Origin: Acidimicrobiia bacterium
GTDB taxonomy: Bacteria > Actinomycetota > Acidimicrobiia > Acidimicrobiales > Poriferisodalaceae
NCBI GenBank assembly: GCA_012960315.1
Contig: DUBN01000016.1
Span: 15,106 to 79,105, forward strand
Direction: 5' to 3'
DNA length: 64,000 nt
A program made the translations under genes and the position numbers. The number at the start of each line of letters is the position of its first letter. The stretch's first letter is position 1. The notes beneath the pieces were generated by a model, which worked only from the letters and a program-made list of their open reading frames with translations, searched no databases and was not told the DNA's origin. Positions 4,153 through 49,047 of the stretch are shown here, one piece after another.

Positions 4153-5238
4153 GTGATCAAGGACAATAACGCCGTAGAGGTCGATGACACGTTAGATGCG
4201 CACGGCGGCTGGCCCGGTGTTCTCAGTGACTTAGTCGCTGGAGTTGACTTGACACCAGCCGCCTCTCGAGCGGCTCTTGGTTCGATACTCCGAGGCGAAG
4301 CTTCTGATGCGCAGGTAGCAGGGTTCATCGTGGCATTGGGGATGAAGGGAGGCTCGGTTTTGGAACTCACTGGTCTCGTTGAAGCGATGATGGACGCTGC
4401 AGCACCCTTGGATCTTCCTGCTGGAACGATCGACATAGTGGGAAGCGGGGGAGCCCCGTCTCGTCGGAAACACGCGTTGAGTGTTTCGACGATGGCATGT
4501 TTTGTTGCATCAGCCGCAGGAGCTGTTGTGTGTAAACACGGCTCGGTAGCCGCATCATCGAGTAGCGGATCATTCGACACATTGACCGCATTGGGTCTTG
4601 CTATCGAGCTTGAGGGAGCAGGGGTCGCTCGTTGCGTTGAAGAGATCGATCTTGGTTTCGCTTTCGCTAAGACATTTCATCCAGCGATGAGATTTGTAGG
4701 TCCGGTTCGCTCTGAACTTGGAGTTCCAACGACATTCAACTTTCTCGGTCCGCTCTCACACCCGGGAGGTGTGCGTCGGCAAGTGGTGGGAGTTAGCGAC
4801 CCTACGATGGCACCTAGAGTTGCGGGAGTCCTCGCAGCGCGAGGTAGCGAACACGCATTAGTCGTACATGGAGGTGACCGCCTCGATGAAATCACCACTA
4901 CCGACTTGACACGTATTTACGAGGTTCGTGATGGCGAGGTGGTGGGCGATTCTCTATTTGATCCCGAATCTGTCGGGATTCGTCGAGTTAACAGAGCAGA
5001 AATTCAGGGAGGAAGCCCTGAAGAAAATGTGCGGATCATGCAGGAACTCTTTTCAGGCAGTGACACTGGGCCACGAGCCGATATCGTCGCCGTCAACGCA
5101 GCGGCGGGCCTTCTTGTAGCTGGAGTTGTCGACGATTTTGCATCTGGTGTAGATGCAGCCAAAGAAGCAATGACCAATGGGCGTGCCGCAACCCAAATCA
5201 CCGCTGTGGTCGACCTAAGTAACGAGATTGCTGATTAA
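4153..5238 (+). CDS. trpD: Anthranilate phosphoribosyltransferase-like protein (divergent TrpD)
   Basis: This is a 361-residue protein with the TrpD fold: a helical N-terminal domain, then the PRPP loop, a KHG...SS segment, HPAMRFVGPVRSELG, FNFLGPL and the DEITTT metal-binding motif. TrpD joins anthranilate to PRPP in tryptophan synthesis. The active-site loops are altered. The usual GTGGD loop reads GSGGAPSRRKHALSVST, with the Asp lost, about three extra residues and Asn replaced by Ser. The usual KHGN reads KHGS. The R and LGPL segments are intact. No other trp genes are nearby. It may be a true TrpD or a family member with a changed substrate. The GTG start is probably leaderless. Confidence 0.8.
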   Translation: MIKDNNAVEVDDTLDAHGGWPGVLSDLVAGVDLTPAASRAALGSILRGEASDAQVAGFIVALGMKGGSVLELTGLVEAMMDAAAPLDLPAGTIDIVGSGGAPSRRKHALSVSTMACFVASAAGAVVCKHGSVAASSSSGSFDTLTALGLAIELEGAGVARCVEEIDLGFAFAKTFHPAMRFVGPVRSELGVPTTFNFLGPLSHPGGVRRQVVGVSDPTMAPRVAGVLAARGSEHALVVHGGDRLDEITTTDLTRIYEVRDGEVVGDSLFDPESVGIRRVNRAEIQGGSPEENVRIMQELFSGSDTGPRADIVAVNAAAGLLVAGVVDDFASGVDAAKEAMTNGRAATQITAVVDLSNEIAD

Positions 5239-5240
5239 TC

Positions 5241-5501
5241 ATGGTTATAGGACAATCTCTACCTTTTGGGGTCGGGGACGTTGTCCGTTTAACTGCCACA
5301 TCGGATGAGAGTCGCCAGCATTTGGTAGGCGAGGCGGGCACGGTGGTGGCCATCCAACCGGGAAATCGGTTTGTGATGGCTGCCGTAAAATTCGAAAGTA
5401 ACGATCGACGTTGGACCATGGTTTACGAAGTTGACGAGCTAGAACTCATCGAGAGGTACGGACATGGTGTGAAGTTTTTGGACCGTCGCCCGAATGCTTG
5501 A
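5241..5501 (+). CDS. Small beta-rich protein of unknown function
   Basis: This is an 86-residue ORF starting two bases after the trpD-like stop. The pattern GVGDVVRLT...VGEAGTVVAI...VKFE...YEVDELELI suggests a small SH3- or KOW-like beta barrel. I do not recognise the family. The spacing suggests co-transcription with the trpD-like gene. It ends five bases before the convergent exonuclease/GIY-YIG gene. Confidence 0.55.
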   Translation: MVIGQSLPFGVGDVVRLTATSDESRQHLVGEAGTVVAIQPGNRFVMAAVKFESNDRRWTMVYEVDELELIERYGHGVKFLDRRPNA

Positions 5502-5505
5502 TGAC

Positions 5506-7146
5506 TCAGGAAGCTTGCCTTGCGGTTTGGTTATTGCGTACTTGAAAGTCATCAAGGTAGGGATATCGAGACGACAAAGGCTGGTCACAATGCACAAGAC
5601 GCAACTTGTCCGCCTGCGTGTTTAGCCAGTTGGCGACGCACCACAATTCGTCGACCTCGTCTTTGTGAGCGACGTCTGTTGGGCGACCATGGGGGACATC
5701 GCTTGCCTCATGCTCGCTCCACTCTTCTGCAAGGCGGCCTCTCTCAAGCATGGTCACTCCGACTCCAGGCAGTTCCACCACTAGACGCCCGGTGGAACGG
5801 ATGCTGTCAAGCTGATACTTGCGCCGAAGCGCAGTTGACAAGGCCGATGCGCGTCGGCGCATTTCTGCGGCCTCCTCGAAACGCTGCTGGCAGGAAAGGT
5901 CAATCATTCGATCTCTAAGAGGTTCAAGGAGTCGTTCGGGTTGGCTGTTCAGAGCAGCTAGAACATCTTCGACGATCGCGCTGTAGGACTCCTCGCTTAC
6001 CTCCCCAGAGCATGGACAAACGCTCGCCCCGATTTGTGCGGCAACGCATGGTCCCGCGATATTTCGGCGAGTGACGCGCTGAGTGCAGCGCCGCAAAGGC
6101 ATCACGCTCTCTATGGCGTCGACGATGTCTCTTGCTATCCGGCGAGATGAGACCGGCCCAAGGTAGAACGCTCCGTCGTCACGGCATTCGCTGACGATAG
6201 AAAGCCGAGGGAAACGCTCTCCGAGCGTCAGTTTTATATAAGCGTATTTTGGCCAATTTTTTGAGCGCCGGTTGAAGCGTGGCCGGAGCTGATGGATGAG
6301 ACGAACTTCCAGTACTTCGGCTTGTAGCGGAGCGCGACACAACGTGTAGTCAATTCGCTGAGTTTCACGAAGTAGTTGGTCGACTTTGCGTCGCCGGTCA
6401 CTAGAAAAGTAGGACCGAACTCGCGCTCGAAGATTTGTTGCTTTGCCGACGTACAGCACCTCTCCCCGTTTGTCGATAAAGCGGTATACCCCCGGGGAAC
6501 GCGGAAGGTCTTCGGTGAGACGCAGCTTTGTTGCTTGAGGATGGCGTTGAATTTTTGGCAACTCCTGGAGGTCGTCAAGCCCCATCACTCCTAAGGCAGA
6601 TGCCCGCTCCAGAAGAAGGTGAAGCAGATCGGCTGTTGCTTGCGCATCATCGAGGGCGCGATGACTTGGCTGGTGGGCTAGCCGAAAATATTTCGCCAAA
6701 GTGCCGAGTTTGTGGTTGGGAACTTCATCTCGAATCAAACGACGAGCTAACGAGAGAGTGTCTACGTGGGAGCCTCCCCAATGATCTCTGCCTGAGCGTT
6801 GCAGGGCGGCATTCAAAAAGGCAAGGTCAAATCCGACGTTGTGTCCGACAATGACTGAATTTCCAATGAATTCCAAAAGGGTTGGAAGGACATGTTCGAT
6901 TTTCGGAGCACGGTAAACCATCGCACTGGTGATCCCGGTCAGCACCGTGATTTGAGGTGGTATCGCTCTTCCCGGGTCGATGAGCGTCTGAAAGGTCCCT
7001 AGTTGTTCGCCGCACCTATATTTGACGGCCCCAACCTCAGTGATCATGTCGCTGTCGCGACGCCCGCCTGTTGTTTCGAAATCGAGCACACAAAACGTAA
7101 CCTCATAAAGGGGAGTGCCGAGGCCATCTAGCGATTGCTGGAACAC
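5506..7146 (-). CDS. DEDD exonuclease fused to UvrC-type GIY-YIG nuclease
   Basis: This is a 546-residue two-domain DNA repair protein. Residues 15-185 are a DnaQ-type 3'-5' exonuclease with Exo I DFETTG, Exo II HNVGFD and Exo III HRALDDAQAT. Residues 215-300 are a GIY-YIG nuclease: GVYRFID, YVGKAT, R-x-R-VRSYF and later NRRSKNWPKYAYIKL. The rest resembles the UvrC middle region. The same fusion is common in Actinobacteria (mycobacterial Rv2191 type). It probably cuts and trims near DNA lesions, as Cho does in E. coli. The GTG start at 7146 is set by the -10 element 7 bases upstream. A LexA-type box lies in its promoter. Confidence 0.88.
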   Translation of the reverse strand: MFQQSLDGLGTPLYEVTFCVLDFETTGGRRDSDMITEVGAVKYRCGEQLGTFQTLIDPGRAIPPQITVLTGITSAMVYRAPKIEHVLPTLLEFIGNSVIVGHNVGFDLAFLNAALQRSGRDHWGGSHVDTLSLARRLIRDEVPNHKLGTLAKYFRLAHQPSHRALDDAQATADLLHLLLERASALGVMGLDDLQELPKIQRHPQATKLRLTEDLPRSPGVYRFIDKRGEVLYVGKATNLRARVRSYFSSDRRRKVDQLLRETQRIDYTLCRAPLQAEVLEVRLIHQLRPRFNRRSKNWPKYAYIKLTLGERFPRLSIVSECRDDGAFYLGPVSSRRIARDIVDAIESVMPLRRCTQRVTRRNIAGPCVAAQIGASVCPCSGEVSEESYSAIVEDVLAALNSQPERLLEPLRDRMIDLSCQQRFEEAAEMRRRASALSTALRRKYQLDSIRSTGRLVVELPGVGVTMLERGRLAEEWSEHEASDVPHGRPTDVAHKDEVDELWCVANWLNTQADKLRLVHCDQPLSSRYPYLDDFQVRNNQTARQAS

Positions 7147-7153
7147 CTATACG

Positions 7154-7159
7154 AATATA
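7154..7159 (-). promoter_or_regulatory. -10 element of the exonuclease/GIY-YIG gene
   Basis: TATATT on the minus strand ends 7 bases before the GTG at 7146, which suggests a leaderless transcript. The LexA-type box begins one base upstream of this element. Confidence 0.6.
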
Positions 7160-7160
7160 G

Positions 7161-7174
7161 CGAACAAGTGTTCG
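7161..7174 (-). promoter_or_regulatory. LexA-type SOS box
   Basis: CGAACAAGTGTTCG (as read on the plus strand) matches the Gram-positive/mycobacterial LexA consensus CGAACRNRYGTTYG at every fixed position. It lies in the -35/-10 spacer of the exonuclease/GIY-YIG gene, where bound LexA would block RNA polymerase. The downstream product is a predicted repair nuclease, which fits SOS control. Confidence 0.75.
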
Positions 7175-7209
7175 ATAGTGGTGTTCTGTTCTCAGCACCG
7201 CTTCGAGGT

Positions 7210-8088
7210 TCAGGATCGGCCAGCTATCCGCTTCAAAAGTCCGCGCTTTCGAGTACTAGGCACCGGCATTTCTATAGTTGCCAACGCAGCCGCAAAATCT
7301 GCTCCGCTCTGAAATCGATCCTCAGGGTCTTTCGACATTGCTCGCACGACAATCTCGGCCAAATCATCTGCTACGCCGGCATCGCGAGGGTGAGGCGGAG
7401 GGAGCTTCACGTGTGCATGTAGAAGTTCGTTGCGCTCACCGTAGAAAGGAGCAGCTCCCACTACCAGTCGGTAGAGAGTCACCCCCAGGCTGTAAAGGTC
7501 GGTTCGTCCGTCAACCAAATTCCCGAGCGCCTGTTCTGGAGCGAGAAACATTGGAGATCCAAAAACCCGACCCTCGGGTGGGCCCGGCCCGTCTAGGTCG
7601 TGAGCCAGGCCAAAATCGAAAAGGACGGCACGGTTCTGTTTCTCGTCCAACATAATGTTCGATGGCTTGACATCGCGGTGCACGATGCGATGTTCGTGTA
7701 CGTGATCGAGCGCTGAACACATTTGCTGGATTATCGCGATTGCCTTGCCCAAGTCGATTGCCTTTTGGGACTGAACGTGCTCCCAAACGGTCTCACCGTC
7801 AATGGGCTCAATCTCTATGTAGTGAGTACCAGCGATCACACCAGCCTGCATCACCCTCAAAACGTTGGGATGTTCTATGCGAGCCATCAGTTCGTACTCT
7901 TGCTCGAACAAGCCGCGAATTTCTCCCCGAGCTTCTGCGAAAGGGGTTAGAACCTTGAGCGCGACTTCGCTGCCATCGCGTAATCCAGCGCGGTACACGT
8001 TGGCGACGGTTCCACGACCCAGGAGTTCGGTAATGCTGTAGGGGCCATATTGTCGACCCACCCAAATGTCTGCGTTGTCGCCGAACAT
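7210..8088 (-). CDS. Soluble serine/threonine protein kinase
   Basis: This is a 292-residue Hanks-type kinase domain covering almost the whole protein: Gly-rich loop LGRGTVANVY, ATP-binding Lys in VALKVL, catalytic HRDVKPSN, metal-binding DFGLA and APEQ at the end of the activation segment. There is no transmembrane helix or PASTA sensor, unlike PknB, and only about 20 basic residues follow the kinase fold. Targets are unknown. The ATG at 8088 has GAGG about 7 bases upstream. It is followed on the same strand by the exonuclease gene, which has its own promoter in the 63-base gap. Confidence 0.93.
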   Translation of the reverse strand: MFGDNADIWVGRQYGPYSITELLGRGTVANVYRAGLRDGSEVALKVLTPFAEARGEIRGLFEQEYELMARIEHPNVLRVMQAGVIAGTHYIEIEPIDGETVWEHVQSQKAIDLGKAIAIIQQMCSALDHVHEHRIVHRDVKPSNIMLDEKQNRAVLFDFGLAHDLDGPGPPEGRVFGSPMFLAPEQALGNLVDGRTDLYSLGVTLYRLVVGAAPFYGERNELLHAHVKLPPPHPRDAGVADDLAEIVVRAMSKDPEDRFQSGADFAAALATIEMPVPSTRKRGLLKRIAGRS

Positions 8089-23502: not shown

Positions 23503-24714
23503 ATGGGTGACTTACCGATTCTTCACGTGGACATGGATGCCTTCTACGTTGAGGTGGAACGCCAAACTGACCCCTCTCTAATAGGTAAAGCCGTCATTGT
23601 CGGAGGAGAATCCGAGCGAGGAGTTGTTGCCTCGGCGAGCTACGAAGCGCGCTCCATGGGGGTCAGGTCAGCTATGTCCAGCGTGTTAGCAAGGAAACTA
23701 TGCCCAGACGCTGTGTTCGTCCGTTCCAACTTCTCGCGATATCGAGAAGTTTCGAAACAGGTGCACGAAATCTTTGACTCCGTTACCCCGCACATAGAGC
23801 CAATTGCTCTAGACGAAGCCTTTCTCGATATCAGTGGAGCTCACAAACTGTTCGGCAGTTCCGAAACGATCGCCTGGCAGCTTCGAAACGATGTCTATGT
23901 GGGAGTAGGACTGGATTGTTCGGTCGGTGTCGCTAGGTCCAAATTGTTGGCAAAACTCGCTTCGGAAGCAGCAAAGCCCAAGGCCACCCGCCGTGGAGTT
24001 CAACCTGGTCTGGGTGTTTACCTCGTGCCTCCTCAAGAAGAGACCTCATTTTTGCAGGCGCACCCGGTGGAAGCCCTCTGGGGTGTTGGGTCTGTGACGT
24101 TCGCCAAGTTAAAGGCGCTAGGGATCTCGACCGTTGGGGAACTGGCATTGGTGCCAGAAGACGTCTTAGTCGAAACTCTTGGAACATCTCACGGAATGCA
24201 TTTGTCAGAACTCAGTCGAGGCATCGACCATCGACGGGTTCATTCCAAAAGAAAAAGTAAGTCAATTAGTCATGAGGAGACATTCGCGCAGGACGTTTTC
24301 GATCGAAGTCACTTGGTGAGCGAAATTATTCGACTTTCAGATGCGGTTTCCACTCGCGCTAGGAGAAAAGGATTAGCCGGGCGAACTGTCCACTTAAAAA
24401 TCAGACGCCCTGACATGCGGTACCTGACGAGATCGGTGACTCTTAGCGAAGCTGTTGACATCCTCCCGGTGATTTCAGAAACGGCTATTGAGATGTTGGA
24501 CCAACTCGACCTCGCAGAAGGCGTCCGATTGCTGGGAGTGGGTTTGAGCAGACTTGGCGCACCGGGCCCGCAGCAACTAACTCTTGTTGGCGAAGAATTA
24601 AGTGACCCGGCTTGGGGACAGCTTTCTGCGGCCATGGACCGCATACGAGAACGGTACGGTGAGGCTGCAATCGGCCCTGGTCTTCCGCGAAAAAACGAGG
24701 GGATGAATGATTGA
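23503..24714 (+). CDS. dinB: DNA polymerase IV (Y-family translesion polymerase)
   Basis: This 403-residue enzyme has the catalytic motifs ILHVDMDAFYVEVE (first Asp) and IALDEAFLDISG (Asp-Glu pair), the helix-hairpin-helix WGVGSVTFAKLKALGISTVGEL and the little-finger domain with RKSKSISHEETF. It copies damaged templates with low fidelity. The C-terminus lacks a clear beta-clamp motif of the QLxLF type, although QQLTLVGEE near the end may serve. I found no LexA box upstream, unlike the exonuclease/GIY-YIG gene. Confidence 0.95.
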   Translation: MGDLPILHVDMDAFYVEVERQTDPSLIGKAVIVGGESERGVVASASYEARSMGVRSAMSSVLARKLCPDAVFVRSNFSRYREVSKQVHEIFDSVTPHIEPIALDEAFLDISGAHKLFGSSETIAWQLRNDVYVGVGLDCSVGVARSKLLAKLASEAAKPKATRRGVQPGLGVYLVPPQEETSFLQAHPVEALWGVGSVTFAKLKALGISTVGELALVPEDVLVETLGTSHGMHLSELSRGIDHRRVHSKRKSKSISHEETFAQDVFDRSHLVSEIIRLSDAVSTRARRKGLAGRTVHLKIRRPDMRYLTRSVTLSEAVDILPVISETAIEMLDQLDLAEGVRLLGVGLSRLGAPGPQQLTLVGEELSDPAWGQLSAAMDRIRERYGEAAIGPGLPRKNEGMND

Positions 24715-48244: not shown

Positions 48245-48396
48245 TGTTCGTCCTGAGAGGGCATGCGACCATGCACGCTATCGCCTTGAGTTGAGAAGGC
48301 CTTTCTTTAAAGTCTGTTGCTTTAGTGCGTGGAGACAAGGAACGACGGAGCTATGATGCGGCACCTTTTCGAACCCGAGTCCTCGGGAGGGGAGTT

Positions 48397-49047
48397 ATGG
48401 CCACAAAAAAGTCCGTTGGTAAGAAAAGCCCTGTGAAGAAGAAAACAGCCGTAAAGAAAAGCCCTGTGAAGAAGAAAACAGCCGTAAAGAAAAGCCCTGT
48501 GAAGAAGAAAACAGCCGTAAAGAAAAGCCCTGTGAAGAAGAAAGCAGTGGCAAAGAAAAGCCCTGTGAAGAAGAAAACAGCCGCAAAGAAAAGCCCTGTG
48601 AAGAAGAAAGCAGTGGCAAAGAAAAGCCCTGTGAAGAAGAAAACAGCGGCAAAAAAGGTGTCGGCGAAAGCTCGTTTCAATGCTCCCTGGTTGAAAAAAC
48701 AACGTGAGGCACTCTTGGCCGAACGGGGCCGGTATACCCAACATGCGGAATTTCTCGAAGAAGAGGCTGATCAGCTCGCACGAGACCGTGAGCCAGGTGA
48801 TGTCCAGTTCGATGAAGAGTCCGGTGAAGGTGATTCGATCGCGGTGGAACGCGACCGGGATCTCCAGTTGTCGGCACAGGCGAGGGCGGCTATCCAAGAT
48901 ATTGACCGTGCGCTTGAGCGAATCAAGAAAGATACATACGGCATCTGCATAGCTTCGGGGCTTCCGATTCCTAAGGAGCGCCTAGAAGCGCTTCCACATG
49001 CCGACATGCGTGTTGAGGAGAAAGCCACCGGCATGTCGTGGCGCTGA
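48397..49047 (+). CDS. Lysine-repeat protein with degenerate DksA/TraR domain
   Basis: This 216-residue protein has two parts. Residues 9-85 are seven copies of the 11-residue repeat KKSPVKKK(T/A)(A/V)(V/A), strongly basic like histone H1 tails and likely to bind nucleic acid. Residues 92-216 form a DksA/TraR-like unit: a coiled-coil hairpin with acidic residues, then IQDIDRALERIKKDTYGICIASGLPIPKERLEALPHA. Only one of the four expected zinc cysteines remains (in YGIC), so the finger cannot bind zinc in the usual way. The ATG at 48397 has GGGAGGGGAG upstream. It precedes lspA in the normal actinobacterial order. Confidence 0.88.
   Translation: MATKKSVGKKSPVKKKTAVKKSPVKKKTAVKKSPVKKKTAVKKSPVKKKAVAKKSPVKKKTAAKKSPVKKKAVAKKSPVKKKTAAKKVSAKARFNAPWLKKQREALLAERGRYTQHAEFLEEEADQLARDREPGDVQFDEESGEGDSIAVERDRDLQLSAQARAAIQDIDRALERIKKDTYGICIASGLPIPKERLEALPHADMRVEEKATGMSWR
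48421..48651 (+). repeat. Seven in-frame 33-bp tandem repeats
   Basis: A 33-base unit beginning AAGAAAAGCCCTGTGAAGAA repeats seven times without interruption inside the lysine-repeat gene. The first three copies are nearly identical. Later copies alternate between the KKSPVKKKAVA and KKSPVKKKTAA versions. The near identity at the DNA level suggests recent expansion and possible copy-number variation. Confidence 0.95.

Follow-up and report, generated by a model that had tools for sequence, protein, structure and literature searches.

The gene for a combined DEDDh exonuclease and GIY-YIG nuclease in the 64-kb window (the whole stretch of DNA analysed, 64,000 nucleotides) very probably belongs to the LexA (SOS) regulon of this bacterium, an uncultured Microthrix-like actinobacterium, with a probability that we put at about 0.92, as judged from a LexA-type box placed in its promoter. 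LexA control appears to be the common state of the gene in Acidimicrobiia and in the other actinobacterial families sampled, and a PafBC-type damage-activated promoter appears to take its place in the class Actinomycetes. All comparisons were made by sequence, and many of the genomes are metagenome bins.

The nuclease gene and its promoter

The features on which the analysis turns are as follows.

5506..7146, minus strand: DEDDh exonuclease/GIY-YIG nuclease gene, 546 aa, 'Cho-like+Exo' (NF005907, PRK07883 family)
6622..7089, minus strand: DEDDh 3'-5' exonuclease domain, aa 20-175 (PF00929, RNase_T, E 8e-32)
6280..6495, minus strand: GIY-YIG nuclease domain of UvrC/Cho type, aa 218-289 (PF01541, E 3e-7)
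5836..5937, minus strand: UVR (UvrB-binding-type) motif, aa 404-437 (PF02151, a weak match in the window's protein, E 0.02)
7144..7146, minus strand: GTG start codon
7154..7159, minus strand: -10 element TATATT
7161..7174, minus strand: predicted LexA-type SOS box CGAACACTTGTTCG (plus strand: CGAACAAGTGTTCG), from exact consensus match, conservation and the same 14-mer at recA
7210..8088, minus strand: Ser/Thr protein kinase gene (PF00069), upstream neighbour of the nuclease gene
23503..24714, plus strand: dinB (DNA polymerase IV) gene without an SOS box, for comparison

The protein scored 555.5 bits against the NCBIfam model NF005907 (DEDD exonuclease), for which the cut-off is 454. All 16 aligned orthologues had the UVR motif, at best with E 1.4e-6. 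Exonuclease residues D22, E24, D107, H162 and D167 and GIY-YIG residues Y221, G234, R242, E280 and N292 were invariant among the 16 orthologues, and by these catalytic residues both nuclease active sites are predicted to be intact. No match to the C-terminal half of UvrC was found in the nuclease, the TIGR00194 match spanning model positions 6-227 of 574. The protein thus joins a DEDDh domain, a UvrC-type GIY-YIG domain and a UVR motif, without the EndoV-like nuclease and HhH domains, which is the composition of Cho-like+Exo (PRK07883); it is not an orthodox Cho of the E. coli type, as it carries the UVR motif instead of the Cho-specific C-terminal domain. An ordinary UvrC (622 aa, C16:123258) is encoded in the genome besides this nuclease. 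Elsewhere in the window (48325-49047, plus strand) lies a predicted 240-aa protein with repeated lysine-rich units of the KKSPVKKKTA type, resembling histone-like tail repeats.

Read along the minus strand, the region upstream of the nuclease runs CGAACACTTGTTCG, a single C, TATATT (7159-7154), CGTATAG and GTG (7146-7144), which leaves 7 nt between the -10 element and the start codon. The preliminary description had reported an exactly fitting SOS box at 7161-7174, a single base ahead of TATATT. The sequence bears this out; the description's reading of the site as a LexA-type promoter box of a DnaQ/GIY-YIG nuclease gene, where bound LexA would overlap the polymerase site, is likewise supported. 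CGAACAAGTGTTCG fits CGAACRNRYGTTYG exactly when read on the plus strand; on the minus strand the fit has one mismatch. It was the sole exact consensus match in the window, where 0.08 would be expected; of 100 shuffled windows, 6 contained at least one such match. When up to two mismatches were allowed, the window held 29 matches, at the chance level of 24 expected; the case for an SOS box therefore rests on position and conservation. No recognisable -35 element was found upstream of the gene in this species. The mRNA is probably leaderless, starting at or next to the GTG.

Conservation was examined among 17 readable orthologues from the same and neighbouring genera. The box stood exactly at -28 from the GTG in all 17, with the GTG itself invariant, and mean column conservation was 96% over the 14 columns of the box and 98% over the -10 element, as against 49% over the 66 nt further upstream. 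In distant orthologues (40-58% protein identity) the distance between box and start varied, but the box usually stood immediately ahead of a TAnnnT -10 element. A palindrome of this kind could arise by chance and have no regulatory role, since the words CGAAC and GTTCG are common in the genome (CGAAC-N4-GTTCG with one mismatch occurs 242 times) and near-consensus matches in the window are about as numerous as chance would give. Chance is, however, hard to reconcile with the exact promoter position, with invariance in 17 relatives amid unconserved flanks, with retention at shifting positions in the distant orthologues, or with strict genome-wide matches that lie mostly at SOS genes (see below); the conservation footprint and the regulon context rule it out, leaving it a negligible probability.

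The kinase gene has the same orientation, stops 36 nt short of the box and was the upstream neighbour of the nuclease gene in 19 compared loci. The nuclease might then be expressed mainly by read-through from the kinase gene, with LexA as a minor roadblock. We consider this unlikely: the -10 element and its spacing to the GTG are as conserved as the SOS box, which argues that the nuclease gene has its own promoter, and the box and -10 element were kept in orthologues with no kinase detected upstream. Some read-through into the nuclease is possible.

The box was absent from the orthologues of three same-family genera (L045, L046 and L049, in G007, G015 and G012) and from some other Acidimicrobiia, and is therefore not indispensable; in the three genera it was either lost or never present. 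In nine genomes of one same-family genus (G008, G016, G021, G024, G027, G030, G032, G034 and G036) no nuclease orthologue was found, only UvrC-type and stray exonuclease matches, an apparent loss of the gene in that genus.

The predicted LexA regulon of the genome

A single protein in the genome matched the lexA model, full-length and with 228.7 bits, and as read from its sequence it retains the AG cleavage site and the SM...K catalytic residues. The strict consensus gave 10 distinct sites genome-wide, 7 of them directly upstream of lexA (three sites), recA, dnaE2, imuA and the nuclease gene. The exact recA box, which precedes the recA GTG by 152 bp, is the same 14-mer as that of the nuclease gene; the exact dnaE2 box lies 13 bp upstream of dnaE2, and one exact box precedes imuA-imuB. 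With lexA present and self-boxed and recA boxed, the genome has the marks of an SOS regulon. In the three congeners searched, strict matches fell at the same SOS genes, except for lexA in G001, an incomplete assembly. The preliminary description had proposed a search for the box upstream of lexA, recA and imuA and a comparison across related genomes, and had named absence of the box from close relatives, or of lexA from the genome, as grounds against its reading. Neither is the case: lexA is there with its three exact boxes, recA and imuA are boxed, and the nuclease box is strongly conserved in every readable close relative. The box, its position, its conservation and its regulon context can all be read directly from the DNA, and we infer LexA binding and damage induction of the nuclease gene from them.

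Near-boxes were also seen beside the exact ones, a second at recA (AGAACACTTGTTCG, L014 2180-2230) and a fourth at lexA (AGAACATTTGTTCG, L013 3696-3806). The remaining 3 of the 10 strict sites lie inside genes, in C2 (phage portal), C8 (aminotransferase) and C38 (jag), and the first two were treated as chance occurrences. The third is a LexA-type palindrome, CGAACRYACGTTCG, at L015:3362-3375 (G000:C38:40361-40374), within a jagN-like ORF of a yidC-jag-rsmG-parA-parB cluster and 114-125 nt ahead of the jag ORF that follows. It was perfect in 12 of 12 genomes of its own and neighbouring genera and absent from 18 more distant ones. Its central amino acid varies (I/V/T/A) and its half-sites are fixed, so the constraint looks to be at the DNA level; no conserved -10 element adjoins it.

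The palindrome at 7161-7174 could in principle serve another regulator with a LexA-like motif, such as a paralogue of LexA or a repressor of phage or ArsR type, as the DNA motif of ArsR is nearly the same as the mycobacterial LexA consensus (PMC8151990). With only one lexA-model match in the genome and the same 14-mer in front of recA, this is highly unlikely, and control by LexA itself remains the preferred reading.

LexA seated in a promoter spacer excludes polymerase, and RecA-stimulated self-cleavage of LexA releases the promoter. At the nuclease gene, a LexA dimer would occupy the palindrome at 7161-7174 in undamaged cells; as the palindrome takes up the -35 to -10 spacer, bound LexA would block a sigma-70-type RNA polymerase at the TATATT promoter. 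Upon DNA damage, RecA filaments on single-stranded DNA would provoke LexA self-cleavage, and mRNA would be made from at or next to the GTG, probably without a leader. From what is known of the family, the UvrC/Cho-type GIY-YIG domain would nick beside the lesion and the DEDDh domain would degrade the strand.

The preliminary description had further noted that the nearby dinB lacks a box and proposed that SOS control had shifted in this lineage from the translesion polymerase to the nuclease. The first part stands, as the best match upstream of the window's dinB is 7 of 10. No SOS box was found upstream of dinB in 30 relatives either, where the best matches (7-8 of 10) were at chance level, and there is therefore no sign that dinB was ever boxed in this lineage. 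Exact boxes are moreover kept at the SOS-type polymerase (mutagenesis) genes dnaE2 and imuA-imuB in this genome and recur there in congeners, and the nuclease box is old, being common to Acidimicrobiia and other families, which means that nothing moved recently. Box-free dinB in the relatives, together with boxed dnaE2 and imuAB, makes a transfer of SOS control from dinB very improbable.

LexA and PafBC across the phylum

Eighty named nuclease orthologues were fetched first and further genomes of the phylum were then added, which gave 142 genes that were labelled and placed on a protein tree. A gene was labelled SOS if it had a box matching at least 9 of 10 positions, and PafBC-type if it had the core TGTC[GG/AG/AC]-N10-TAnnnT after PMC8151990, a relaxed motif that was settled on once the first loci had been inspected, though it follows the published description. 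In control stretches from the same loci the SOS criterion was satisfied in 1.6% and the PafBC core in 0.2-0.6%.

Among the named orthologues, those of Acidimicrobiia mostly had an SOS box, and those of Nonomuraea, Actinomadura, Kribbella, Nocardioides, Streptosporangium, Cellulomonas and Geodermatophilaceae had none. Most of the box-free genes carried TTGTCRGTG-N8-TAnnnT, which is the RecA-NDp promoter of PafBC, with a spacer of 8 wherever the match was good; this promoter is absent upstream of the window's nuclease gene. On the tree, the class Actinomycetes fell in a clade of 42 genes (SH-aLRT 90), of which 35 were PafBC-type, one (L121) had both motifs, six had neither and none had the SOS box alone, so that the PafBC-type core was present in 36 of 42, the weakest calls (Geodermatophilaceae) being marginal. 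Outside this clade, and leaving aside a distant clade of 14 nearly all unlabelled genes, 76 of 86 genes had the SOS box (at least 9 of 10), and the one PafBC-type call was a stray gene, L144. The fewest changes between the LexA and PafBC states on the 142-gene tree were two. The promoter motifs are thus seen in the sequences to be exchanged clade by clade. As the LexA state surrounds the PafBC clade on the midpoint-rooted tree, LexA to PafBC is the likelier direction of the exchange. Four Actinomadura orthologues (L101, L106, L109 and L111) also have a conserved near-box, e.g. CGAACGTGTGATCG, about 184-212 nt upstream of the nuclease, which perhaps belongs to another gene.

A missing PafBC was considered as the reason for LexA control and found to be unsupported. 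In the window's genome a pair of adjacent WYL genes overlap on the minus strand (L174:3714-4664 and 4634-5551; G000:C54:84.7-86.6 kb), and their products match the solved PafBC structure with E 1e-19 and 6e-8; WYL genes were present in 29 of the 31 genomes searched. With a PafB/PafC-like pair present in this genome, the difference between LexA and PafBC control is not simply a matter of lacking PafBC. The RecA-NDp motif showed no enrichment in the window's genome (16 vs 13 in the control), and its PafBC may use another motif or have few targets.

We think it likely, though with less assurance than we attach to LexA control in the window, that damage-inducibility of Cho-like+Exo is conserved in Actinomycetota and that its regulator was swapped once, from LexA repression (Acidimicrobiia and other sampled families) to PafBC activation (class Actinomycetes), with the compact, often leaderless -10 promoter kept, even though genomes on the LexA side encode PafBC-like proteins too.

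Relation to known systems

E. coli Cho (YdjQ) is an SOS-induced GIY-YIG endonuclease of excision repair. The window's protein resembles it as a UvrC-family GIY-YIG nuclease with predicted SOS induction; Cho, in contrast, lacks the exonuclease domain, differs in its C-terminal domain (PMC1564403) and has an E. coli-type LexA box. Cho itself was described by Moolenaar 2002, as cited in PMC5521853. In Bacteroidetes, a DnaQ-like GIY-YIG domain exonuclease (COG0847) has been predicted to be LexA-regulated (PMC8565304). The domain pairing and the predicted LexA control are the same as here, whereas the phylum and the LexA motifs are different. As LexA control is known for Cho and predicted for the Bacteroidetes exonuclease, this kind of regulation is already known.

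Cho-like+Exo was described in 2006 as a variety specific to Actinobacteria (PMC1564403). The window's protein has the same domain order as the members of that family (PRK07883/NF005903-NF005907, with a Mycobacterium member; PMC1564403), namely ExoIII/DEDDh, UvrC/Cho-type GIY-YIG and UVR. The same paper cites a suggestion that the exonuclease starts at the GIY-YIG incision and digests through the lesion (PMC1564403). The literature searched gave no regulation for the family and no report on regulation of the nuclease in Acidimicrobiia, and the window's gene adds a LexA box. An exchange between LexA and PafBC was not found reported in the portion of the PafBC regulon literature covered, which was incomplete. 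A repair nuclease would thereby join the core SOS regulon (lexA, recA, dnaE2, imuAB) of a little-studied actinobacterial class. A single gene whose damage control falls to LexA in the one class and to PafBC in the other would offer a clean natural comparison for testing how repair genes came to pass from the RecA/LexA to the PafBC route in Actinomycetes, and for what reason; the uncharacterised Actinomycetes orthologues of the nuclease are predicted to be PafBC targets.

The PafBC side of this comparison is known from the RecA-NDp promoters of mycobacteria (PMC6789036, PMC8151990). Their motif, TTGTCRGTG-N8-TAnnnT, is the one found on the Actinomycetes orthologues of the nuclease, whereas the window's gene has a LexA box instead; and PafBC, unlike LexA, is an activator and acts independently of LexA and RecA.
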